Positions 2,813 through 15,843 of a stretch of 45,532 bases of DNA are shown piece by piece. How positions within the stretch are numbered: position 1 is the stretch's first letter; each line of letters begins with the position of its first letter. The notes under the pieces are model-generated. The model did not search any database and was not told where the DNA came from. It saw nothing but the letters and a program-made list of their open reading frames with translations. A program made the position numbers and the translations under genes. This stretch comes from Chitinophagaceae bacterium (GTDB lineage: Bacteria > Bacteroidota > Bacteroidia > Chitinophagales > Chitinophagaceae): positions 1 to 45,532 of the forward strand of contig JACSRV010000112.1 of assembly GCA_014879545.1 (NCBI GenBank), in the 5' to 3' direction.

Positions 2813-5800
2813 ATGACACCCGCAACACAACTTACTCCAGGCCCTTTCCGCCGGCCGGTGGTACCTACCATCGAACAGGTATTTCGGTTGATGGGTGTGC
2901 TGGTATTGTTGTTGGTGTCTTTTTCAGCAACTGCCGTTACTTCATTATTCTCTGCAGACAAGGTAGCCGGTTGCGCCCCCCTGGTGGTAAATTTCACACC
3001 GGTCGATGCGCCGTGCAGCGGTTGTACATATTCATGGAACTTCGGCACAGGATCTCCGGTCACGGGTTATACGGCTTCGTCCAGTTTTCTCACTGCCGGT
3101 GTCCATGTTGTAACGCTCACGGTTACCAGCGGCGCGTTGTCGAGTAGCAGCACACGAACGATTACTGTCTACGCCAACCCTACGGTGAGCTTCACCACAA
3201 GTGACACTGCTATCTGCCCGGGCAAAAGCGCAACGTTCTCCAACACCAGCATAAACGGCGCATCAGGCCCGGCAACTATAAAATGGAGTCTTGGAGATGG
3301 AGACACAGCACTAGTGAGCCCCGTTACCCATACATATATGTTTCCGGGTTATTATAACGTAGCCTTGTCTGTCACCAACTCCAATGGCTGCACCACCACC
3401 CTCACCAAAACCACCCTGATACATGTTTTTACCCCACCGGTCATTAGCTTCACTCAAAACAAGACCACTGTCTGCGACCCTCCGGCATCGGTAACATTTA
3501 CCAACACGTCTACAGGCTCAGGACCGCTCACATACCTCTGGCGCTTCGGCGACAACACTACCTCCGGTGCTACCAGCCCGTCACACAGCTACTCCACCAA
3601 CGGCACTTATAGTGTCTTACTTAAGGTTACAGACGTACACGGCTGCCCCGACAGTGCTGTTGGCGGAACCGTTACCGTAGGCAGTGTCACGTCTGGATTC
3701 ACATTCAACGATACGGCATGTGTGAACGCACCTGTATCATTCACCAATACCAGTAGCACCCATACCTACAGACAATGGCTTTTTGGCGATGGAGCATCAT
3801 CGACAACTGTGGACGCAGTGCATACCTACACAGCTGCCGGAACCTATCAGGTGAAGCTGATAACCGGTTTCAGCCCTTGTATTGATACGCTAATGCAGGT
3901 CATGTACGTGATACCCGGCCCTACCGGATCATTCACCGCTACCCCCGCGCAGCCATGTGCTGCACCTGTTAGCATAACGTACACTTCTACAGCACTACCG
4001 GGCACAATTGTGAAATGGATGTTCGAAAAAACCGGATACCGCACAGGTAACAGTTATACCTATACCTACAAGGTCGACAGTATTGTCGACATTGAGATGG
4101 TTAAGATTCATCCTACGTTTGGATGCAGTGATACCATCCGTGTAAAAGACAGGTTGTATGATCACCTGTTCAACATCGACGTTGATCACGACCGGGGGTG
4201 CGCACCGTTGACCGTAAACTTTACAACTCAACATTTCACCACGCAGCCATTATGGTTACTGGCGCCTTACCCTTATCCGGTCGACTCAATTAAATGGACC
4301 ATGGGCGTACCAGGGGCCAAGGCCACAGGTGCCACCACAAGCTATACTTATACCGATACCGGCATTTACAGGGTATATGCCACCATGTACACACGAAACA
4401 ACTGTATCATTAAGGACTCAATCGATATACTTGTGGGCAACGTACCGGCCGCCACGTTTACGGCTGCACCACTACATGCCTGCAGGGAAGATACGATCAC
4501 CTTTACCGCAACGGTGACTTCGGGCGTGGTCGACTCATTTGTATGGGATTTCGGCGACTTCCTAACGTTCACTGATACCGCGGTAAAAAAACGCCCTTAC
4601 ACGTTGCCGGGCGAATTTACCGTGACGCTTACACCATGTTTCTACGGTTGCTGCGGTGACACATTCATCCGGCGCGACTATGTACTAATTGACTCCCCGA
4701 AGGCGGTCCTGTACTATAAGTTCAACTGTCCGATAGATCGTCAGGTATTGTTTTTCGACTCGTCTTTAGGCAACGACGTCCGAACATGGTATTTCGGCGA
4801 TGGCGACTCTTCAAGTGCCACCTACCCTGCCCACACCTATGCGTCACCCGGACAATTCCCGATAGAGTTGGTCGTCCGGAACACAATTGCAGGTTGTGTG
4901 GACCGACGGCGCGACACGATCAAAGTCGTTGACCCCCATCCTAATTTCACAGCGAACATTACCCAGTTATGCGAGCCGGATTCTGTAATTTTTCAGGCAC
5001 TCGATACCACCGGGACCCAATTATCATTCAAGTGGATCATTGAATCTACGTCAACGCCCTATAATAACCCACGAACATATAAACACGGATTTTCTTCACC
5101 GGGGCGCTACGATGTAACGATGGTGTCCTGGGATGAAAACGACTGCCTGGACACGATCAGAAAGCTGAATTACGTGGTTCTGGGCAAACCTATTGCCGGG
5201 TTTAAACCTTCAGCACCACAGGGGTGCGTTCCTTTTGCCGTCACTTTCACCGACACCAGTAAACAGGTCATTGGCCTGACGGCATCGACCTATAGGTGGG
5301 ACTTTGGCGACGGAGACACGGCCCTGACAACATCACCAACGTTTGGCCATACCTATACCGCCGTCGGAACTTACACAGTAACTGAAGTCGTTACGAATAA
5401 TATAAATTGCAAAGACACGATCACCGGAACTATAACTGTATTAGATGCAGCCCCCAATTTCAACGCTTCTCTGACGCACCCATGTATTGGTGCTCCTGTA
5501 TCGTTCAACAATACGACACTGGATATGGTGACCTGCAAATGGCAGTTTGGAGATGGAGATACTTCGTTACTCACAACACCAACCCACGCGTACAATGACA
5601 CCGGACGATACAATGTTTCTCTTACAGTCACCGACTCTCATGGCTGCACTGCAACTACCACGTTTATTAATTATATCACCACCACTAAGCCAACCGCACG
5701 ATTCACTGTCGTCGACTCTGTCTCAGTTTGTGTTCCGTTCCTCGCGCAGTTCTACAATGGCAGCGTAGGTGCATCAACGTATTCATGGAAATTTGGTGAT

Positions 5801-8497
5801 GGACACGAATCTGTGGTACCATCCCCAACCAACAATTACACTGTGGCTGGGATATATACAGCGCAACTGATTGTTGCTAACCAATGGGGATGCAAGGACA
5901 CTGCCATTCGTACTATGAAAGCCTATGGATACCCAGGAGGATTTACGTACATACCGAAGACCGGTTGTAGCCCGATGAATGTGCATTTCACTTCATCGCT
6001 GGAGAAAGTTCCGAGTATTACCTGGGACTTTGCCGATGGCGTCATTGTTACCACATCCGGCAGTGATACTATCAGCCATGTGTACACTACCCCGGGGGCA
6101 TATGTGCCAAAATTGATCCTTAGCGACAATGCAGGTTGTGTCGCGTCAAACATTGGTACCGATACGATCAAAGTAAGTGCAGTATTGGCAAAACTTGTTG
6201 CGTCGCCCGATACGATATGTCCGGGAGTTTATTTTTCATTGATCGATTCGTCCAGAAGTTATTTCTCACCCATCGTATCCCGCACCTGGATATATGACGC
6301 CCTCACCAGCACGACGCCTTCACCGATGCACATGTTTTCGTCATCAGGCACTTATGCTATTCATCTGGAGTCAAGAAATGGCTGGGGATGTGTAGGCGTT
6401 AAAGACACTGATATTATTGTGCCATTTGTAGCACCTATAACCGGTGATACAATTTTATGTACCGGTACTTCGACAACATTTTCGAGTACTACAAGCGGCG
6501 GCGCATGGAACAGCAGCGATCCTCTTAAATTGAGTATGGCTCCTTCATCTGGCATCGCAAATGCGCTCTCGGCGGGCACGGCTACCATTTCATACAGAGC
6601 ATTGGGTTGTCAGGTGGAAAGGACCATGACCGTCCAAACTACGCCGCCCGCTATTGGAGGTACTTATACAGTGTGCGCCGGAGCCAACACTGTGCTAACC
6701 AACACCATGACCGGAGGAAGCTGGATAAGCGGGAATAACACTGTAGCCACCGTGAATTCTCTTGGCACCGTTAGCGGAGTAAGTGCAGGAACCGTAACGA
6801 TCAGTTACAAAGTGGGAATTTGTTTTTCAACGGTGACTGTAACTGTCTCTGCCATGCCTTCAACTATTGGTGGAGACAAAGATATTTGCAGCGCATCTAC
6901 TACCCTGCTTACCAATACCCTGAGCGGTGGCAGCTGGAGTAGTTCGGACACCGGTATTGTAAAAGTAGACGACATCGGCACTGCAACGGGCGTGGTAGTT
7001 GGTACGGCAACCATTACCTACAACGCCAACGGGTGCATAGCAACAACCACCGTCACGGTGAATAATTCTATTCCCCCTATAACAGGACAATTGACTGTAT
7101 GTATAGGAAATAGCACAACGCTTACCAATGCCGGTATAGGCGGTACCTGGATCAGCGGAGACACAGCAATAGCGGCGATAACACCTGTCACGGGCATAGT
7201 TTCCGCCAAACAAGTGGGCACCTGCCTCATCACCTATTCGTTAGGTGGCGGATGCCGCGATACTGCGGAGTTAAGTGTGATTCCCCCGCCCGACCCCGGG
7301 ACCCTCTCCGGGCCCGACGCTGTTTGTATTGGCGATATTGTGGCGATAGCGCCGTCTATACCTGGGGGCACATGGTCTGCAGCCGGCACCCGAATATCCG
7401 TGATAGCAGGAAACGTCCGAGGCATCTCTTCCGGTTCAGACACGGTTATTTATACAATCACTGCTGCTTTCTGTGCTTCCCAAACAAAAATGCCAATATA
7501 TGTAAATCCGTTACCGGAAGCGGGTACCATAACCAATACAGGTCCGTATTGTGCAAATGCAACGGTGGTTCTTTCGACACAGCCTGTCAACAGTGGCGGA
7601 TGGTATAGTTTAAACTCCTCGATCGTAACCATCGACAGTGCTTCAGGTAGCGCTACTACTATTACCCCGGGAAAGGCTACTATTGTTTTTACCGCCGTTG
7701 ATACCAATGGATGTAAAAACAAAACATCGGCTGAGATGGAAGTTATCGTTCCGAACTTCACATTATACGAAAGTATTAACGACGTGAGTTGCTGGGGTGA
7801 TAGCAACGGCAGCATCACACTTACAGTGACCGGAACGCCCACGTTTGAGTACCTGTGGAGTAACGGAAAGACCACTCCCTTAATTACCGGCTTGCAACAA
7901 GGCACATATTCAGTATTGGTGACCCAACAACCCACCCAATGCAAAAAAGCAGGCAGTTATGTGGTAGCCATGCCAGATAGCCTTTGGGTAGATGCCACTG
8001 CGATTCCGGATACTTGCGCGCTCGCACGTGGCATGATAACTGCACTTCCGTTCGGTGGCGCACCACCTTACAATTACATTTGGACCAAGGGAACGACCAA
8101 CTATCCGGACCTTTCTATACTGACCGGTGCGACAAAGGGTATGTATCTGTTGACACTGAAAGACGCAAAGGGCTGCATAGACACAATATCAGTAAATGTA
8201 GAAGAAGGCCCTTGTAATGCCGTTGAGATATACGACGTAATAACACCCAATGGAGATGGGGTAAACGATTACTGGGTGATCAATGGCATTAAGGATTATC
8301 CCCGCAACATGGTGCAGATCTTTGACAAATGGGGGGATATAGTGTATGAAAAACAGGGATACAATAATGAATGGAGGGGACAAGGAAATAAAGGTGAATT
8401 GCCCGACGGCACTTACTACTACCTGGTGAAACTGAATGAACCGAATAAATTTGGAGGGCCGTCGGAATATGCGGGCGCAATATTGCTGAAACGATGA
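2813..8497 (+). CDS. giant PKD/Ig-like surface adhesin with type B T9SS sorting domain
   Basis: This is a 1894-residue secreted protein. A long basic leader ends in a hydrophobic stretch (about residues 26-43), consistent with a Sec signal peptide. About 14 PKD-like domains follow (to about residue 1205), recognisable by repeats such as W-x-FGDG and HxY-xxxGxY-xV; several are degenerate. Next come six bacterial Ig-like (BIG2-like) domains (about 1209-1645), each starting near a conserved Cys and containing GG-x-W, and two SprB-like repeats (about 1648-1800). The last 90 residues form a CHU_C/gliding-motility C-terminal domain with ITPNGDGVND and W-G-x-x-VYE, the type B T9SS tail. The ATG at 2813 is the only start that keeps the leader intact. 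The stop overlaps the start of the next gene (ATGA). Comparable proteins are exported through T9SS and act as surface adhesins or gliding filaments; the ligand is unknown. Confidence 0.93.
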   Translation: MTPATQLTPGPFRRPVVPTIEQVFRLMGVLVLLLVSFSATAVTSLFSADKVAGCAPLVVNFTPVDAPCSGCTYSWNFGTGSPVTGYTASSSFLTAGVHVVTLTVTSGALSSSSTRTITVYANPTVSFTTSDTAICPGKSATFSNTSINGASGPATIKWSLGDGDTALVSPVTHTYMFPGYYNVALSVTNSNGCTTTLTKTTLIHVFTPPVISFTQNKTTVCDPPASVTFTNTSTGSGPLTYLWRFGDNTTSGATSPSHSYSTNGTYSVLLKVTDVHGCPDSAVGGTVTVGSVTSGFTFNDTACVNAPVSFTNTSSTHTYRQWLFGDGASSTTVDAVHTYTAAGTYQVKLITGFSPCIDTLMQVMYVIPGPTGSFTATPAQPCAAPVSITYTSTALPGTIVKWMFEKTGYRTGNSYTYTYKVDSIVDIEMVKIHPTFGCSDTIRVKDRLYDHLFNIDVDHDRGCAPLTVNFTTQHFTTQPLWLLAPYPYPVDSIKWTMGVPGAKATGATTSYTYTDTGIYRVYATMYTRNNCIIKDSIDILVGNVPAATFTAAPLHACREDTITFTATVTSGVVDSFVWDFGDFLTFTDTAVKKRPYTLPGEFTVTLTPCFYGCCGDTFIRRDYVLIDSPKAVLYYKFNCPIDRQVLFFDSSLGNDVRTWYFGDGDSSSATYPAHTYASPGQFPIELVVRNTIAGCVDRRRDTIKVVDPHPNFTANITQLCEPDSVIFQALDTTGTQLSFKWIIESTSTPYNNPRTYKHGFSSPGRYDVTMVSWDENDCLDTIRKLNYVVLGKPIAGFKPSAPQGCVPFAVTFTDTSKQVIGLTASTYRWDFGDGDTALTTSPTFGHTYTAVGTYTVTEVVTNNINCKDTITGTITVLDAAPNFNASLTHPCIGAPVSFNNTTLDMVTCKWQFGDGDTSLLTTPTHAYNDTGRYNVSLTVTDSHGCTATTTFINYITTTKPTARFTVVDSVSVCVPFLAQFYNGSVGASTYSWKFGDGHESVVPSPTNNYTVAGIYTAQLIVANQWGCKDTAIRTMKAYGYPGGFTYIPKTGCSPMNVHFTSSLEKVPSITWDFADGVIVTTSGSDTISHVYTTPGAYVPKLILSDNAGCVASNIGTDTIKVSAVLAKLVASPDTICPGVYFSLIDSSRSYFSPIVSRTWIYDALTSTTPSPMHMFSSSGTYAIHLESRNGWGCVGVKDTDIIVPFVAPITGDTILCTGTSTTFSSTTSGGAWNSSDPLKLSMAPSSGIANALSAGTATISYRALGCQVERTMTVQTTPPAIGGTYTVCAGANTVLTNTMTGGSWISGNNTVATVNSLGTVSGVSAGTVTISYKVGICFSTVTVTVSAMPSTIGGDKDICSASTTLLTNTLSGGSWSSSDTGIVKVDDIGTATGVVVGTATITYNANGCIATTTVTVNNSIPPITGQLTVCIGNSTTLTNAGIGGTWISGDTAIAAITPVTGIVSAKQVGTCLITYSLGGGCRDTAELSVIPPPDPGTLSGPDAVCIGDIVAIAPSIPGGTWSAAGTRISVIAGNVRGISSGSDTVIYTITAAFCASQTKMPIYVNPLPEAGTITNTGPYCANATVVLSTQPVNSGGWYSLNSSIVTIDSASGSATTITPGKATIVFTAVDTNGCKNKTSAEMEVIVPNFTLYESINDVSCWGDSNGSITLTVTGTPTFEYLWSNGKTTPLITGLQQGTYSVLVTQQPTQCKKAGSYVVAMPDSLWVDATAIPDTCALARGMITALPFGGAPPYNYIWTKGTTNYPDLSILTGATKGMYLLTLKDAKGCIDTISVNVEEGPCNAVEIYDVITPNGDGVNDYWVINGIKDYPRNMVQIFDKWGDIVYEKQGYNNEWRGQGNKGELPDGTYYYLVKLNEPNKFGGPSEYAGAILLKR

Positions 8498-9438
8498 AGA
8501 AGCAGATAATATATAGCATCCTGGCGTTTATGCCACTTTTTGCCTCTGCGCAAAGCGATCCGCATGTGACCATGTTCATGTTTAACAAACTTCTGTACAA
8601 TCCCGGATATGCGGGCAGCAGAGACATGACATCTGTCAATGCTCAGTACCGCAACCAATGGGCGGGCATTCCCGGAGCACCAAAAACAATCAGCGTCACT
8701 GCGGATGGTCCAGCCGGCAGTTATATGTTACCGTTTCGCCATGTCGCTACCGGCATCAGTTTCATGAATGAGAAAGTTGGAATTGAAAACAATACAGCGA
8801 TCAAGGGTTATTATTCGTACCGGATCAAACTGGCAAAATCTATTTTGTCGCTCGGGCTTTCAGGCGGTGGCAGCTTCTACTCAGCTGCATACAGCAATCT
8901 TACACCTTTTCAACAAAACGACCAGAATCTAACCACTGATGTCAGAAATGCGTTCCTGCCAAATTTTGGTACCGGAGCATATTGGTGTACCGAAAAATAC
9001 TACCTGGGGCTCTCTGTCCCTTCGCTACTGGAGAACAAATACGATAAAAAGGGCACCCAGATCGCAAGGCAGGTTCGTGGCTACTACTTTTCCGCGGGTT
9101 ATGTGTATGAGTTAAATTCAGTGATCAAACTAAAACCGCAGATACTCGCGAGAATTGCCCGAAACAGTGACTATGGTTTACCATTCAATTGCGACATCAA
9201 CCTCTCGGCCATTGCCTACGACCGACTAATGATCGGTGCTACCTACCGCACAGATAAATCATTTTCTGCAATTGCTCATATCCAGGTAACACAGTTCATC
9301 AATATCGGTTATAGCTATGACTATTTACTCTCCGATATAGCGCCATACGCCAGAGGGGCACATGAATTTGTAGTTGGTTTCGATCTGGTACGCGACCGAC
9401 TAAAGTACACCACCCCTCGTTTCAGTAAATCATTCTAA
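8494..9438 (+). CDS. PorP/SprF family type IX secretion-associated outer-membrane protein
   Basis: This 314-residue protein has a signal peptide ending FASAQ and the characteristic start of the mature PorP/SprF family: FMFNKLLYNPGYAGS followed by AQYRNQW. The rest alternates short amphipathic strands, fitting an outer-membrane beta-barrel. Family members sit at the T9SS outer-membrane site and are needed for attachment of type B (CHU_C) cargo such as SprB. Its ATG overlaps the stop of the adhesin gene by four bases, so the two are translationally coupled and very likely dedicated to each other. Confidence 0.93.
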   Translation: MKKQIIYSILAFMPLFASAQSDPHVTMFMFNKLLYNPGYAGSRDMTSVNAQYRNQWAGIPGAPKTISVTADGPAGSYMLPFRHVATGISFMNEKVGIENNTAIKGYYSYRIKLAKSILSLGLSGGGSFYSAAYSNLTPFQQNDQNLTTDVRNAFLPNFGTGAYWCTEKYYLGLSVPSLLENKYDKKGTQIARQVRGYYFSAGYVYELNSVIKLKPQILARIARNSDYGLPFNCDINLSAIAYDRLMIGATYRTDKSFSAIAHIQVTQFINIGYSYDYLLSDIAPYARGAHEFVVGFDLVRDRLKYTTPRFSKSF

Positions 9439-9444
9439 GACCCC

Positions 9445-11493
9445 ATGACCGGTAGAAACATAGTGCTCTTATTGGTGTACTTTCAACTGTTCGCTGTTTC
9501 CTCGTATGCGCGTGGCAACAAAACCTCGCTGAAAGCAAACTACTATTATCATCACTATGCCTACCACGAAGCGATCCCTTATTTTGAAGAGCTTGTTTCT
9601 TCATCAGATGACCTTGAATCGTTAGCGAAACTCGCGGACTGTTATCGCCTGACGGGTAATGATGAAAAAGCGGCAGCTATCTACAACCGTGCCATCAACG
9701 CTGATACCTGTAAGCCCGAATGCTACATGAAATACGCACGCGTATTGATGAGACTGGGCCGGTATGAAACTGCAGTATTGGAGCTGAAATCATGCATTGA
9801 TAAGAACGGAAACGATACCCGCATAACAAAACTTATCACCACATGCGAACAAGCTGCAGAAAGATCGGCAAATGAGTTCCCGGCAGGTATCACTATATTT
9901 CAACCCTATAACTCTGACGGCGCCGACTTTGCCCCCACAATATGGAACGGGAATGTGGTGTTTACCTCAGACACAGTGGTCGGACTTAAAAAAGGGTCGG
10001 ACAAATGGACGGGGAATAATTATTTCAGTATTTACAAGGTAAGTTCCGACGGTGCCCGACCGACTGCAATTGAAAAGGTTCCCGGCCCTAAGGATATGTA
10101 CATCAAGCACCACATAGGGCCCTGTACATTTGCAAAAGGGGGGAAGGAAATGTACTATACCCGGTCGCGATATGCTGCCGGCTTTATAAAAGAAAAAGCA
10201 AAAGGAGGTGCAGATAGTTCTGTTTACCTTGAAATAATGATTGCAGGTGATTTTGATAGTTCCACACAAAAGTTCACATCAATAAAGCCGTTTAGACACA
10301 ATAGCGCCACCTATTCTGTGGCACATCCGGCCGTATCGCCTGACGGGAAACGACTAATATTCTCATCCGACAAACCCGGTGGCTTTGGCGGCCGGGATCT
10401 GTATATATGTACCAACGAGTACGGGAGTCTGTGGAGCGTTCCTATGCTGATCGATTCAGCTGTTAACACCGAAGGCGATGAAGTGTTCCCATGGTGGGCC
10501 GATGACAGCACACTTTATTTTTCGTCGGATGGCCACCGCGGTCTGGGCGGTTTGGATATTTACCGTGTGCAACTGAACAGGCAGGAAAACGAATGGACAA
10601 ATAGAGAGAATATGCCGCAGCCTTTGAATTCGTCTTATGACGACCTTTCTTTGGCGCTACCTGCTAATACCGGCAGCGGTTATTTCTCATCAGACAGACC
10701 GGCCAAAATGGGGGGGGATAATATATTTTACTATCGCCGCATGAAACTATACATGAAGGTGATAGTGGTTGATTCAGCCACCGGCAAACCGCTTGATGCT
10801 CACATTACCAGTAGCTCCGTAAAAACGGGGACAGACCGTACTCAACCTGCCGGAACTGCATTTGTGGAACGTTTGTGGCCGGATGCAGAGTATTTTGTGA
10901 GCGTAAGCAGAAAGTACTACAAACCTCAGTCCATATCCTTCGTTGCCACCTCCACAGTAGGCTCAGGCGAGACCGACACTATTTTTCAAAAGATTGCATT
11001 GGCTGCAATTGATAATAGCTGGGATTCCACGTTTGCCATAACAATTACAGAAACTGAGGGCGGCACCCGTCCGGGTATCATGGATAGCCCCGCCATCAGC
11101 AGTTTTGAGGTAAACAAAGTCTATGTGATCGGGTATTTTGACTTCAACTTCAGTAAGTTCTACTACAAAGCAGGGAAAGCTGATATTAATGTGGAAAAGC
11201 GAGTGGTGTTGGATACCTTGGCGAATATCCTGAGAAGAAATCCTACAATGGCCATACAGGTGCGTGCACACACTGATTGCCGCGGTACGGGTGAGTACAA
11301 TATGAAACTTTCAGTAGAACGGGCGGCATCGGTGGTGGAATACCTTCTGAAGAAAGGCATAGCATCCAACAGGCTTGAATACAAAGGTTTTGGAGAAACA
11401 ACACCCATAATCCCATGCCCTGATTGCCAGGCCTGCACAGAGGAACAGCATGCTCAAAACCGGGTACTAGAATTCAAAGTCTTAAAGATCTAG
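9445..11493 (+). CDS. OmpA-family protein with TPR and PD40 beta-propeller domains
   Basis: This is a 682-residue exported protein (signal peptide MTGRNIVLLLVYFQ to YARG). Domains in order: TPR-like helices (about 25-140), a WD40-like PD40 beta-propeller (about 150-430) with repeats such as PDGKRLIFSSDKPGGFGGRD and YFSSDGHRGLGGLDIY, a carboxypeptidase-regulatory-like beta domain (about 440-515), and a C-terminal OmpA domain (about 555-682). The OmpA domain carries the peptidoglycan-binding pattern HTDCRG, LSVERA and GFGE. The architecture matches the PorE/SprE-like OmpA partner found beside PorP/SprF genes. It starts six bases after the sprF-like stop, so it completes an adhesin/PorP-SprF/OmpA operon and probably anchors the export complex to peptidoglycan. 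A Cys-rich CPDCQAC segment near the C-terminus could be disulfide-bonded. Confidence 0.92.
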   Translation: MTGRNIVLLLVYFQLFAVSSYARGNKTSLKANYYYHHYAYHEAIPYFEELVSSSDDLESLAKLADCYRLTGNDEKAAAIYNRAINADTCKPECYMKYARVLMRLGRYETAVLELKSCIDKNGNDTRITKLITTCEQAAERSANEFPAGITIFQPYNSDGADFAPTIWNGNVVFTSDTVVGLKKGSDKWTGNNYFSIYKVSSDGARPTAIEKVPGPKDMYIKHHIGPCTFAKGGKEMYYTRSRYAAGFIKEKAKGGADSSVYLEIMIAGDFDSSTQKFTSIKPFRHNSATYSVAHPAVSPDGKRLIFSSDKPGGFGGRDLYICTNEYGSLWSVPMLIDSAVNTEGDEVFPWWADDSTLYFSSDGHRGLGGLDIYRVQLNRQENEWTNRENMPQPLNSSYDDLSLALPANTGSGYFSSDRPAKMGGDNIFYYRRMKLYMKVIVVDSATGKPLDAHITSSSVKTGTDRTQPAGTAFVERLWPDAEYFVSVSRKYYKPQSISFVATSTVGSGETDTIFQKIALAAIDNSWDSTFAITITETEGGTRPGIMDSPAISSFEVNKVYVIGYFDFNFSKFYYKAGKADINVEKRVVLDTLANILRRNPTMAIQVRAHTDCRGTGEYNMKLSVERAASVVEYLLKKGIASNRLEYKGFGETTPIIPCPDCQACTEEQHAQNRVLEFKVLKI

Positions 11494-12200: not shown

Positions 12201-13991
12201 TTAGAAATGCACTTGTATGCCACCCTTGTATCCTATACGCATTTCCATTTGCTGCGCCACTGCCATTCCTGAATATAGAATGTGCGTTTCTACCAGTGGG
12301 CCGTCAGGTTTGTAATTATAGAACGACACATTATAGCCTGCACCTGCAAATAGCTCAAACGCGCCAACCCTGATCGATGGCATAACGCGCACGCTGTACT
12401 CATTATAGAACAAACCACGGGCATCAGTAAGCGACACAGCCCCGATCTCATTGTTGATACGGAACTTGCGGTAGACCGGTAAATGAGCCCCAATTCCCGC
12501 TTCCAAACCGGCAAGCACTGAAGACCCTGAAACATTCCCACCCAAACCAAATATGCCATACAAAACCCTGCCACCTGAACGGAGTGTGACAAACGAATTC
12601 CCGTAATCGTCAACGGAAACCCCTAGCGCCTTTTCGCCCGACCGAATAATGTTGATGATGCCGATAGGATAGTCAGACGAGTCTGCTACATTGACAAAAC
12701 CTGCAACCTGTACTCCTTTTACACGACGAGCGATATTGATAAAACCTGCAACCTGAGCACCATCTACTTGATCTGCAATATTGATGAAACCGGCAGCCTG
12801 GGCGCCCCGCACCCTACCGGCAATGTTGATAAAACCAGATGCCTGAACGTTGGCTGTTTTAGCCCCATTCATAAAGCCTGCCGCTTGAACACCCCGCAGA
12901 GTGTCTGCGGCAACATTCATAAAACCCGAAGCCTGTACACCCTCAACTTTATCGGCTTTGTTCATGAATCCGGCAGTTTGTACACCCTGCAACCCTCCAA
13001 CAACAAAATTGCTGAAACCACTGGATTGAATGCCTTCAACGTTTCCGGCAACTACATTGAACACACCTGCAGCCTGTACATACTTAACATCGCGCTTATC
13101 GATATTGAACATACCGGCTACTTCCACACCATCTACCCCGGCTGTATATCCCCCCAATAAATTGAACGAGAATTTATTTTCAACCTGTCCGCTCATTTTA
13201 CCGTGCGTGCCAACGCCCGGTATAAAAGAAAACTGATATGGTTTATCTACAAAGAACTTACCCAGATTCAGGCTTTGGGTCTTTAGTTTAGATGAGATCA
13301 ATTTCCGACCAAACCATGATCGCCCAACTCCTGAAAATTGGGTAACCACCATATCCGGCAATGCATACGTCTCCGGCACAATCGTCAGAGACAGTTCCTG
13401 ATCATATCCTTTTATGAGTGACACACTCGTATCAACGTAAAACCCTTTACTAACAACGATTTCCGCCGATTGGTATTTCTCCCTGTCGCGAAGTTGAAGC
13501 GAAAAATGCCCTTCTTTATCCGTAATTGCAGATGCTAATTGTTGCCGCTCGAACACACTAACATCCGCCAGTGCGTCGCCTGTGTTTCCATCGGTAATAA
13601 ATCCGCTTATTGTGTACCATTTCTCTTTCTCAGGAGGTTGCAGGATGACGTATTTATCAGTCTCCACGTACCGAAACTGCTCCCCCAGCACACCATCCAA
13701 CACCTGTTTCACCGATTGTCCGTGTGCAGACACTGAAACAAGACTGTCTTTTCTGATGAGATTGCTATTGTACGAAAAGTAAAATCCACCTTGCCTGCCA
13801 ATGGCCTTCAGGACCTCGGCAAGCGGCTTTTTGCTCATTTCAATTGATACCTTGTTTTGCAGAAGACTCTTGGTCTGTCCTTTTAAGGTGCCGGTTACTG
13901 AAAAAAGTACAAGCAAGAGAAAGATCAACGTAGTGAAGCGCTGTCTGATTGGTGAACGGAAAAAAAAAGAGAAACGAAAATTTAAAGACAT
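12201..13991 (-). CDS. STN-domain and carboxypeptidase-regulatory-like protein with LA_2272-type surface repeats
   Basis: A 596-residue exported protein (from ATG 13991; the frame also opens upstream at a TTG at 14015). A hydrophobic signal segment ends near GTLKGQ. Then come an STN/secretin-TonB short N-terminal domain (about 38-110; VSIEMSKKPLAEVLKAIG), a CarboxypepD-regulatory-like beta domain (about 120-205), and about ten 15-16-residue repeats of the form G-V/A-Q-x-A/S-G-F-x-N. A beta-rich C-terminal part ends in Phe, as outer-membrane barrels do. There is no TonB-receptor plug or 22-strand barrel. It follows the sigma and FecR genes in the position where a FecA/SusC-type receptor normally lies, so its STN domain probably contacts FecR in the periplasm. 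The signal it senses is unknown. The repeat-family name is from memory; the repeats themselves are plain in the sequence. Confidence 0.85.
   Translation of the reverse strand: MSLNFRFSFFFRSPIRQRFTTLIFLLLVLFSVTGTLKGQTKSLLQNKVSIEMSKKPLAEVLKAIGRQGGFYFSYNSNLIRKDSLVSVSAHGQSVKQVLDGVLGEQFRYVETDKYVILQPPEKEKWYTISGFITDGNTGDALADVSVFERQQLASAITDKEGHFSLQLRDREKYQSAEIVVSKGFYVDTSVSLIKGYDQELSLTIVPETYALPDMVVTQFSGVGRSWFGRKLISSKLKTQSLNLGKFFVDKPYQFSFIPGVGTHGKMSGQVENKFSFNLLGGYTAGVDGVEVAGMFNIDKRDVKYVQAAGVFNVVAGNVEGIQSSGFSNFVVGGLQGVQTAGFMNKADKVEGVQASGFMNVAADTLRGVQAAGFMNGAKTANVQASGFINIAGRVRGAQAAGFINIADQVDGAQVAGFINIARRVKGVQVAGFVNVADSSDYPIGIINIIRSGEKALGVSVDDYGNSFVTLRSGGRVLYGIFGLGGNVSGSSVLAGLEAGIGAHLPVYRKFRINNEIGAVSLTDARGLFYNEYSVRVMPSIRVGAFELFAGAGYNVSFYNYKPDGPLVETHILYSGMAVAQQMEMRIGYKGGIQVHF
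12670..13150 (-). repeat. in-gene tandem repeats, about ten units of 45-48 bases
   Basis: The DNA encodes consecutive units such as GVQAAGFMN, VQASGFINIA, GAQAAGFINIA and GAQVAGFINIA. Units are 15 or 16 codons long and have diverged at the ends but not in the core AGF-x-N. The regular spacing fits a stack of beta-strands or a solenoid, or short barrel strands. Confidence 0.85.
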
Positions 13992-14070
13992 GTAGCGGCA
14001 GATAGCGATAAACAAAATTATTAATTTGTCAGCAAAAACTCATCCGGGTATCGGGTTGCACGGGAAGCTA

Positions 14071-15081
14071 TCATCGCTCTTTCAGCAACACCTTACCATC
14101 CCTACGTTCCACTACCATCTCGTTCCGGAAAGTCTTACCTATAACATCGATTATATTATCGAGAGATTCGTTTGGAAAGGTTGCCGATAGCGGTAGTGTC
14201 TGTAGCCTTGGGCTCTCAATTACAATCTGCGCATTATAAGCATCATTAAGCGTAGCGACCACCTTGTACAGCGGAACAGCATTGCAAACAAATTCATTAG
14301 TGCGGTAATAATTGTAGAGTTCATCGGTTACGCTTTCAGTGAGTGGTGTATCGTTGGCAGTAGTGACAGTGGTTTTTTGCCCTGGGTTCAAACGCACGGT
14401 GCGCTCCTTTTTGGTAACCTCCACAATACCTGTTTCCACGATCACCTCTGTAACATCCCGCCTGCTTTTTACGTTGAACGACGTGCCAACTACCCGCACA
14501 GAAGAGTTTCCGGCATCAATGATGAATGGGTGTGCCTTATCGGGGGTAATGTTGAAGAACGCCTCCCCCTTCAACGCAACAGACCTTGTTTTCCCATCGA
14601 AATGGGCCGGATATGAAAGTTCAGAATGTTTATTGAGTGTAACTACCGAACCGTCAGGCAAGGTGTAGATCATCACCTTATCATTAGTTTGAGCAAGAAT
14701 ATTACCACTATCCGATCCATTCCATGTGTACATGATCCAGGCGGCTCCCGCCATTACCACAAGCACTGCCGCTGCCTTTACCCATGACAACCCATGCAAT
14801 GGGATCTGTTTTGCCGTTCTTCTATCACTACCCTGACCTTTTCCTTCTTCTAGTGCAACCCGATCCATGAACCTTCCCCATGCATCATCGGCTTTCACGG
14901 TTGTATGCCCTTCCAGTTTCTTACTCTCGCTCCATATCAGGCTGAAGTCGTCAAAATACTTACGATTCTCCAGGCTTTCTGCAACCCAGTCTAGTACTGC
15001 ATCTACCTCATCTGTTGTAGCCTCTCCTGCCAGGTATTTCACCAGCATGTCGTCATACATATATTCTTTGTTCGTGCTCAC
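14071..15081 (-). CDS. FecR-family anti-sigma factor
   Basis: A 336-residue inner-membrane signal transducer. The cytoplasmic N-terminal part (residues 1-100) contains the KYLAGEAT and W-x-ES-x-EN-R patterns of Bacteroidota FecR proteins. One transmembrane helix spans residues 101-119 (VKAAAVLVVMAGAAWIMYTW). The periplasmic FecR domain (about 128-235) shows LPDGSVVTLNKHSEL, LKGEAFFNI and VVGTSFNV. A C-terminal DUF4974 (about 263-334) is the region that meets a partner's STN domain. The start shown is GTG 15081, 12 bases after the sigma-gene stop; ATG 15060 is an alternative. It probably holds the neighbouring ECF sigma factor inactive until signalled from the outer membrane. Confidence 0.93.
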   Translation of the reverse strand: MSTNKEYMYDDMLVKYLAGEATTDEVDAVLDWVAESLENRKYFDDFSLIWSESKKLEGHTTVKADDAWGRFMDRVALEEGKGQGSDRRTAKQIPLHGLSWVKAAAVLVVMAGAAWIMYTWNGSDSGNILAQTNDKVMIYTLPDGSVVTLNKHSELSYPAHFDGKTRSVALKGEAFFNITPDKAHPFIIDAGNSSVRVVGTSFNVKSRRDVTEVIVETGIVEVTKKERTVRLNPGQKTTVTTANDTPLTESVTDELYNYYRTNEFVCNAVPLYKVVATLNDAYNAQIVIESPRLQTLPLSATFPNESLDNIIDVIGKTFRNEMVVERRDGKVLLKER

Positions 15082-15093
15082 TGACTACAATTA

Positions 15094-15642
15094 TTAAAAG
15101 TTGAATAATAGAATTAATAGGATGGGTAGGTATTCAGCCAATTGGGTCCTCAAAATTTTCAATGCTTTGCCCATTTGATTCTCCACGGTTTTGACAGAAA
15201 GACCAAGCCTGTCGGCGATCTCCAGATATTTCAACTGTTCAAAACGGCTCATCTGAAATATAGTTCTGCATTGCTCAGGCAATGCGCGCAGCGCCTCATC
15301 GAGTTTTTCTTCCAGTTCTTTCAGCTTCAGCTTTTCTGCAGCATTATTCAAATTTTCCATAGTGCGTGCCATATGAACTCTATAGGCTGCCTTTACTTTC
15401 TCGTGTTTCACATGATTGAGACACTCATTGTAAACGCTACGATACAGGTAGCCGGCCATAGTACCTGAAATATCGAGCTGGTCTTTGTTCTTCCACAGCT
15501 TATAAAAAACATTCTGTACCATTTCTTCCGCCATCAATTCATCTCTGATGATCGTATAGGCATATCGATGCAACCCCTCAAAATGGGTTTTGAACGCATC
15601 TTCAATCATGCGCTTACTATCTATTATAGTTTCATTGATCAT
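15094..15642 (-). CDS. ECF-type RNA polymerase sigma-70 factor (Bacteroidetes family)
   Basis: A 182-residue alternative sigma factor. Region 2 (about residues 14-52) includes the sequence DELMAEEMVQNVFYKLW. Region 4 (about 118-164) includes LPEQCRTIFQMSRFEQLKY and a helix-turn-helix with LSVKTVENQMGKAL. A hydrophobic C-terminal tail (ILLILLFNF) is slightly unusual. The frame opens at TTG 15687, but a TATATTTG -7 box at 15666-15673 would start transcription inside that extension, so ATG 15642 is chosen. It heads the sigma/FecR/STN-repeat cluster and probably autoregulates it. Confidence 0.92.
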   Translation of the reverse strand: MINETIIDSKRMIEDAFKTHFEGLHRYAYTIIRDELMAEEMVQNVFYKLWKNKDQLDISGTMAGYLYRSVYNECLNHVKHEKVKAAYRVHMARTMENLNNAAEKLKLKELEEKLDEALRALPEQCRTIFQMSRFEQLKYLEIADRLGLSVKTVENQMGKALKILRTQLAEYLPILLILLFNF

Positions 15643-15665
15643 GTGAACTGTTTGGTAACCTTTCT

Positions 15666-15673
15666 CAAATATA
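15666..15673 (-). promoter_or_regulatory. -7 box of the sigma/FecR/STN cluster
   Basis: TATATTTG on the minus strand matches TAnnTTTG and lies 24 bases upstream of ATG 15642. No TTTG lies at the expected -33 position. That could mean dependence on an alternative sigma factor, possibly the one encoded here, or a chance match. Confidence 0.45.
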
Positions 15674-15843
15674 ATCGCTTCTTCCAAGCCTTTTATTTAG
15701 AAGAAGACAACTGTGAATGGAATTACCCCTATGACGTTTTGAAAAAAGATTAAGAATTCTTTTAGAGGGGTGATTGAAACGATCAAATTTGAATTCAAAA
15801 AATGAGGAAACAGAACCGCTGTTAATTGAAAATCAATTACTTA

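Follow-up and report, generated by a model that had tools for sequence, protein, structure and literature searches.

What does a FecR-type signalling operon sense when its third gene does not encode a TonB-dependent receptor? The question is raised by three genes in a 45,532-nucleotide stretch of a Chitinophagaceae genome (the window, by which we mean that whole stretch), all on the minus strand in the order extracytoplasmic function (ECF) sigma factor, FecR-type anti-sigma factor, and STN-repeat protein. STN-FecR signalling is, to our knowledge, known almost only from TonB-dependent uptake. From the sequence, an original prediction proposed that the third protein signals through its STN domain to FecR and that the module senses something other than TonB-imported nutrients, such as envelope state or a surface ligand. 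The reading we prefer, to which we assign a probability of about 0.6, is that this is a cell-surface-signalling operon of the FecI/FecR type with a transducer other than a TonB-dependent receptor; the repeats of its third protein would form a solenoid that serves as a periplasmic stalk and presents STN to FecR.

The sigma/FecR pair and the protein in third position

The sigma factor scores 165.9 bits with TIGR02985 (cut-off 126.4), as a FecI-like ECF sigma factor should, and the anti-sigma factor scores over the cut-offs for PF04773 (63.6 bits) and PF16344, FecR_C (32.9 bits), with a hydrophobic segment near residues 98-116 (hydropathy), consistent with a membrane anti-sigma factor carrying both FecR and FecR_C domains. 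For the sigma gene the likely start is the TTG at 15687, and not the ATG at 15642 where the original prediction had set the edge of the module, because the peptide LEEAIIF..GYQ, encoded ahead of that ATG, is kept in the sigma N-termini of relatives.

The domains of the third protein are best recognised at the level of its family: with a threshold of E<=0.01, all 15 aligned members match CarbopepD_reg_2 (PF13715), the carboxypeptidase-like domain (CPD), the best of them at 4.7e-12, and 13 of the 15 match STN (best 1.6e-10). A regular expression finds ten AGFxN units spaced 14-16 residues apart, plus one overlapping match, in a repeat stretch of 180 residues that has room for about 12 turns. The N-terminus resembles a signal peptide, with a hydrophobic window at residue 19, and the final residue is Phe. 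These results bear out the predicted composition of the operon and of its third protein, including the approximately ten repeats and the terminal Phe. No plug or receptor domain was matched in Pfam up to E 1; TIGR04056, the SusC/RagA model, reaches 17.3 bits over 44 CPD residues against a required 368, and a sequence search of the protein against the PDB returned no match at E<=1.

AlphaFold2, run as a single chain on an alignment of 12 sequences, predicts a repeat stretch with high confidence (predicted local distance difference test, pLDDT, 84-95 for residues 301-450 and 60-80 for residues 271-300), followed by a small C-terminal barrel; confidence is lower in STN (54-82, in blocks of ten), in the CPD (41-56) and lower still in the linker after it. 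When residues 246-596 were modelled alone, the mean pLDDT was 81.2 and the predicted template modelling score (pTM) 0.65. Comparison with VIA-align places residues 450-596 on 8-strand barrels, namely 6x9z (Z 15.1, root-mean-square deviation (rmsd) 2.2, 111 residues aligned), the OprF N-domain (Z 14.8) and OmpA (Z 14.4), where rows within 1 are tied; these barrel rows did not change with the second model. Residues 253-451, approximately, align to solenoids, among them tapirin (Z 11.5, rmsd 3.5, 187 aligned) and the tailspike 6f7d (Z 9.8, rmsd 3.8, 208 aligned), while the LpxA and GlmU rows superpose poorly on the repeat part (rmsd 9-10). That the repeats form a beta-solenoid is thus suggested mainly by the AlphaFold2 model, since the structure comparison tests the repeats only thinly.

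Two other folds were considered and rejected. A large barrel made of the repeats is contradicted by their alignment to solenoids, and a full TonB-receptor barrel by the whole-protein and repeat-barrel models, both of which give 8 strands only. The absence of a plug and of a receptor barrel, as originally predicted, is therefore borne out, with the correction that an outer-membrane barrel of another type, with 8 strands, is predicted after all. In this barrel modelled outer loops 1-3 have 2-5 residues each; loop 4 alone is long (about residues 559-581) and of lower confidence. Both termini of known 8-strand outer-membrane barrels lie on the periplasmic side, which would put STN, the CPD and the solenoid of the model in the periplasm. 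The rise of a beta-solenoid is usually 4.8 angstrom per turn, so that approximately 12 turns would make a stalk of about 6 nm. The operon would thus pair its anti-sigma factor with an outer-membrane partner that carries STN, the domain being recognised through the family matches and the barrel through prediction.

Distribution of the triplet and of a promoter-like element

A related-locus scan gave 10 loci, and a search of 60 genomes of relatives, the window's own included, gave matches in 24 genomes; 30 relative loci were laid out, with duplicated records counted once. The full triplet of sigma factor, FecR and STN/CPD/solenoid-barrel protein occurs in 15 of the 30 (L032-L040 and L042-L047, counting L043, where the STN gene runs off the contig). 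Twelve (L048, L050-L060) have only a paralogue of the third protein that lacks STN, and two (L041, L049) have other architectures; L061 (genome G041), with sigma factor, FecR and the start of STN before the contig ends, was excluded from the counts. Neither in the 15 triplet loci nor in the window is the third position occupied by a TonB receptor. The flanks of the triplet vary (one downstream gene is common to L033-L036 and L038, and L032 has the flanks of the window). By its closest named relatives, the organism of the window belongs near Flavipsychrobacter/Taibaiella.

The search for conserved triplets was extended to the phylum with a solenoid-barrel profile, which matched 81 of 395 Bacteroidota genomes. 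We compared 40 regions from 39 of these 81; the window's own genome aside, they take in all matches in open reading frames of at least 550 amino acids and a choice of shorter ones. In the 17 STN-bearing regions (L143-L159) FecR is adjacent in 16, and a sigma gene is found in 15, a DUF2807 gene in 10, a TonB-receptor-like gene in 8 (a partial match in L147) and an exact copy of the element described below in 9; in the 23 regions with STN-less proteins only (L160-L182), all five are absent (0/23 each). With genomes treated as unrelated, Fisher's test gives p values of 2.7e-10 for FecR, 3.4e-9 for sigma, 8.9e-5 for the element and 2.3e-5 for DUF2807. The predicted coupling of STN to FecR is thus indicated by co-occurrence, and the triplet itself is conserved both among relatives and in distant Bacteroidota. 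Among these STN-less regions, nine (L165, L167-L173 and L176) have solenoid-barrel proteins of 473-512 amino acids from another Bacteroidota family (f43), which lie, by eye, in a repeated neighbourhood of similar-looking small genes without sigma factor or FecR.

Upstream regions of the module genes contain a recognisable element, TAGGGGTA followed by exactly 13 bases and TTGTC. Searched as TRGGGGTA-N13-KTGTC, it has three matches in the window's genome, where the reversed-pattern control has none: ahead of the module sigma gene, ahead of the STN-less paralogue on contig C28 (there as TGGGGGTA), and ahead of a DUF2807 gene. The order on C28 is STN-less paralogue, DUF2807 gene, TonB-receptor-like gene, and the DUF2807 protein has, by eye, a lipoprotein-like signal. 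Of 16 triplet loci, counting that of the window, 14 have the element ahead of their sigma gene. Among the same 60 genomes, the 14 with a triplet contain 47 exact matches against 6 for the control and the other 46 contain 22 against 16; module genes account for 37 of the 47 (12 at sigma genes, 13 at the STN-less paralogue, 10 at DUF2807 genes and 2 at receptor-like genes, with the sites of L047 and L056 assigned by eye where an overlong reading-frame start overlaps the element). Columns beyond the searched pattern are also skewed, with TTT upstream, an A ahead of TAGGGG, a G ahead of TTGTC and A/T-rich sequence after it (53 sites, related by descent). Across the phylum, 12 of 17 STN-solenoid genomes contain the strict element, compared with 17 of 377 others (p 1.1e-11), and the reversed control occurs in 1 of the 17 and, as read from a table, about 55 of the 377; outside STN-solenoid genomes the strict element is therefore not enriched. 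Its position and co-occurrence suggest that it is the promoter of this sigma factor.

A generic FecI promoter was rejected as an explanation of the element, which has 3 matches in the window's genome against 16 matches to TIGR02985 (2 over cut-off) and is absent from a sigma/FecR/STN-receptor-like locus there. That locus (L193:1325-5447, on G000:C101) encodes sigma factor, FecR and an STN-CPD receptor-like protein of 858 amino acids. Elsewhere, an exact element precedes two small secreted-looking proteins of 138 and 196 amino acids in genome G036 (L110:2467-3687), which are possible further members of the regulon, and matches inside or antisense to other genes (L095, L098, L099, L102, L112) look like background.

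Coordinates of the module, its domains and its promoter-like element in the window
Feature	Coordinates	Strand	Residues	Details and basis
Promoter-like element, TAGGGGTA-N13-TTGTC	15706..15731	-		Exact match, 18 bases ahead of the sigma factor's TTG start
ECF sigma factor gene	15094..15687	-		197 amino acids; probable TTG start
FecR-type anti-sigma factor gene	14071..15081	-		336 amino acids; GTG start
FecR_C domain, periplasmic end of FecR	14125..14292	-		PF16344
STN / carboxypeptidase-like / beta-solenoid / 8-strand barrel protein (P0001)	12201..13991	-		596 amino acids; translation, Pfam, AlphaFold2 model
STN domain	13638..13853	-	about 47-118	PF07660 at residues 72-119, below gathering
Carboxypeptidase-regulatory-like domain	13380..13610	-	128-204	PF13715, below gathering; low model confidence
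Repeat stretch, modelled beta-solenoid	12642..13181	-	271-450	Repeat count and pLDDT
OmpA/NspA-like 8-strand barrel (predicted), C-terminal Phe	12204..12635	-	453-596	AlphaFold2 and VIA-align

Beyond the module, positions 2813-11493 of the plus strand contain a gene for a large repeat protein with a gliding-motility-like C-terminus, followed by PorP/SprF-like and OmpA-like genes, which together resemble a cluster linked to type IX secretion.

A proposed stalked transducer and what it may sense

In the mechanism that we propose, the predicted 8-strand barrel would anchor the third protein in the outer membrane, and the approximately 12-turn solenoid, the CPD and STN would hang inward from it as a stalk, since a barrel of this kind has its two ends on the periplasmic side. 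STN would bind the STN-like FecR_C end of the anti-sigma factor, as co-occurrence and the analogy with FoxA/FoxR and PupB/PupR suggest, and by that same analogy would guard FecR at rest; once stalk or barrel registers a change, FecR would be opened to proteolysis and the sigma factor freed. The sigma factor would then read TAGGGGTA-N13-TTGTC ahead of its own operon, the STN-less solenoid-barrel paralogue, the DUF2807 lipoprotein and the TonB-receptor-like gene. Since the paralogue shares stalk and barrel and lacks STN, it may, more speculatively, exert negative feedback by competing for the input. That input would most likely be a condition of the envelope, or else a partner that is periplasmic or a lipoprotein; the DUF2807 protein, which belongs to the Toastrack grouping of envelope-stress domains (PMC11237479, represented here, like the other papers cited, by excerpts), and the nearly loop-free barrel favour the former. 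We also offer a more specific version, on which we would not rely as things stand: a rigid solenoid on a nearly loop-free barrel would measure periplasmic geometry or load and report through STN and FecR, with the STN-less twin as a decoy and a Toastrack-type lipoprotein in the response, making the module a widespread envelope monitor of Bacteroidota. The solenoid as a strict ruler was rejected, as its length varies from 172 to 258 residues.

Several observations weigh against the stalked, non-TonB transducer, that variation in length among them. In the window protein itself, STN scores 19.5-19.6 bits (gathering 28.4) and CarbopepD_reg_2 25.9 bits (gathering 32.2, E 1e-5), and a genome-level search of the window's genome with the Pfam STN model gave no match at E<=0.001. 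One STN-solenoid gene (L156) has neither FecR nor sigma factor in the fetched region, and another (L147) has FecR with no sigma factor detected. The exact element is lacking in L046 and has one mismatch in L044; the strict element is missing from 5 of the 17 STN-solenoid genomes, and of the 12 that have it only 9 have it at the module, G224, G307 and G429 having it elsewhere. On the structural side, the full model (mean pLDDT 71.1, pTM 0.47) leaves the position of the stalk relative to the barrel unproven, and the second model, being of part of the same protein, is no independent confirmation. Foldseek alone found no match in the PDB at E<=0.001. Water-soluble 8-strand barrels (mFAP, streptavidin) also stand high in the VIA-align list, and membrane insertion is therefore argued from the signal-peptide-like N-terminus, from the C-terminal Phe and from the outer-membrane rows.

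The presence of a TonB-receptor-like gene in the regulon further counts against our reading, in that signalling may be coupled to uptake. In a split transducer, a TonB-receptor-like protein would bind the imported ligand and signal sideways to the STN-solenoid protein, so that a nutrient would still be sensed. We think this arrangement unlikely but keep it in consideration, since some relatives have such a gene, lacking STN, close to the module: a CPD/plug receptor-like gene of about 780-805 amino acids, in which no STN was found, neighbours the triplet in L039, L040 and the eight distant loci counted above, and is preceded by the same element in L039, G029 and G035 (in G035 the homologue is weaker, at 24.6% identity). 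The plug matches of such genes are weak, one at E 4.9e-4 and below gathering, another at E 3.8e-5 with 24.6 bits against 23.9. No such gene was seen in the regions fetched for the remaining 9 of the 17 distant loci, and the window's genome has it on a different contig from the triplet, beside the paralogue; the third position of the triplet, as noted, is never a TonB receptor. The proposal that something other than a TonB-imported nutrient is sensed accordingly stays tentative, given the receptor-like neighbours in some relatives. Such neighbours would tell against it outright only if the repeat protein were unrelated to the signalling, but that protein carries STN.

A surface ligand, the other input suggested at the outset, has lost ground and now seems improbable. 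The small barrel would bind an outside ligand with its outer loops and the solenoid would relay the event; an outer-membrane barrel is indeed predicted, with its long if less confidently modelled loop 4, but the remaining three outer loops offer little outer surface and the part before the first strand should be periplasmic. A further reading would make the repeat protein no more than a usual outer-membrane protein co-transcribed with sigma factor and FecR, with a different STN protein signalling to FecR; we consider this very improbable. Solenoid-barrel proteins without STN do live apart from sigma factor and FecR in all 23 of the fetched regions that have only such proteins, and the L193 locus supplies a second sigma/FecR/STN-receptor-like set in the window's genome; yet STN on the solenoid protein tracks the adjacency of FecR (16/17 against 0/23), and the single FecR_C match found in the window's genome (87.5% complete) is the FecR of the module.

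Precedents, sister systems and significance

The comparison with FecI-FecR-FecA is close up to the transducer. In excerpts of the papers on such systems, STN guards the anti-sigma factor from proteolysis in FoxA-FoxR (PMC11637429), and the relay from STN to anti-sigma factor is described for PupB-PupR and FecA-FecR (PMC9249621). An ECF sigma factor, an anti-sigma factor with FecR and FecR_C and an STN protein are likewise found together in the operon studied here. In contrast to FecA-type proteins, which carry STN on a plug and a 22-strand receptor barrel, the protein in the window would carry it on a solenoid and an 8-strand barrel, and is no TonB-dependent transporter. Moreover, the element precedes the sigma operon itself, whereas Escherichia coli fecIR is read by sigma-70 (PMC9249621, in excerpt). 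The module thus resembles cell-surface signalling but lacks one of its defining features, the TonB-dependent transducer.

That rule was broken earlier by VreA of Pseudomonas aeruginosa, and VreA-VreR-VreI (PUMA3) is the closest precedent; excerpts of PMC2729926 describe a sigma/anti-sigma pair with an STN protein other than a TonB receptor, small, mostly soluble and with a TolA-like end. The module shares the pairing with an STN protein that lacks a receptor barrel. It differs in its solenoid and predicted outer-membrane barrel and in an operon with its own element, and its C-terminus is modelled as an outer-membrane-type barrel and not as a TolA/TonB-like end. SusC/RagA TonB receptors have a CPD and, in some members, STN, but the window protein has neither a plug match nor a receptor barrel. 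The LA_2272 surface repeat (NF047436) is matched by the repeats of L148, L150, L144, L047 and L149 (29.7-40 bits, cut-off 25), and L041 and L049 also pass this cut-off, whereas the window protein has no match up to E 1 and L151 and L046 are unmatched (seven STN-bearing relatives scanned). Toastrack domains, DUF2807 included, are tied to phage-shock envelope systems and placed inside the cell in excerpts of PMC11237479; the regulon contains a DUF2807 protein, here with its lipoprotein-like signal. Among the literature matches listed, which cover openly licensed PMC papers only, none treats this triplet and LA_2272 has no occurrence; within that scope, which does not establish absence from print, neither these matches nor the excerpts describe a solenoid combined with an 8-strand barrel, its spread through Bacteroidota or a regulon defined by the element.

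Sister systems are found in seven loci (L093, L094, L096, L097, L103, L107, L108) of genomes without an STN-solenoid protein; a search with P0001 gave no match in six of these genomes and one weak match, in a 1137-amino-acid frame, in the seventh (G015). Their sigma factors are 52.7-56.5% identical to that of the window and have the same element upstream, and their anti-sigma factors align locally with the window's FecR in BLAST (E 1e-13 to 8e-22). None of the seven anti-sigma factors matches the FecR or FecR_C Pfam domains up to E 1, in contrast to the four of four triplet FecRs scanned (the window's included), which have both; judged by domain matches, where the STN partner is lacking, the recognisable STN-binding half of the anti-sigma factor is absent as well. 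In the three sister loci scanned, the third gene encodes a DUF1573 protein (L093 and L094) or a thioredoxin-like protein (L107); in L101 and L104, too, the element stands ahead of a DUF1573 gene.

The two loci of other architecture suggest that the solenoid-barrel may have been recruited to sigma control more than once. L049 (6358-10019) encodes a DUF2807 protein, an ECF sigma factor and a 749-amino-acid protein with a long linker and solenoid-barrel, whose N-terminal segment looks membrane-spanning by eye and was not flagged by the hydropathy cut-off; this protein possibly joins anti-sigma factor and outer-membrane sensor in one chain. L041 (1686-5227), on a Spirochaetes contig, encodes an ECF sigma factor, a protein of 266 amino acids that has a hydrophobic segment, and a third protein that joins a caspase-like domain (Peptidase_C14, 46.9 bits) to the solenoid-barrel (LA_2272 repeat, 58 bits).

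The short element provides a ready list of targets with which the module can be tested. If a conserved version without an uptake barrel is true, the STN-FecR relay would be a more general channel from the outer to the inner part of the envelope.

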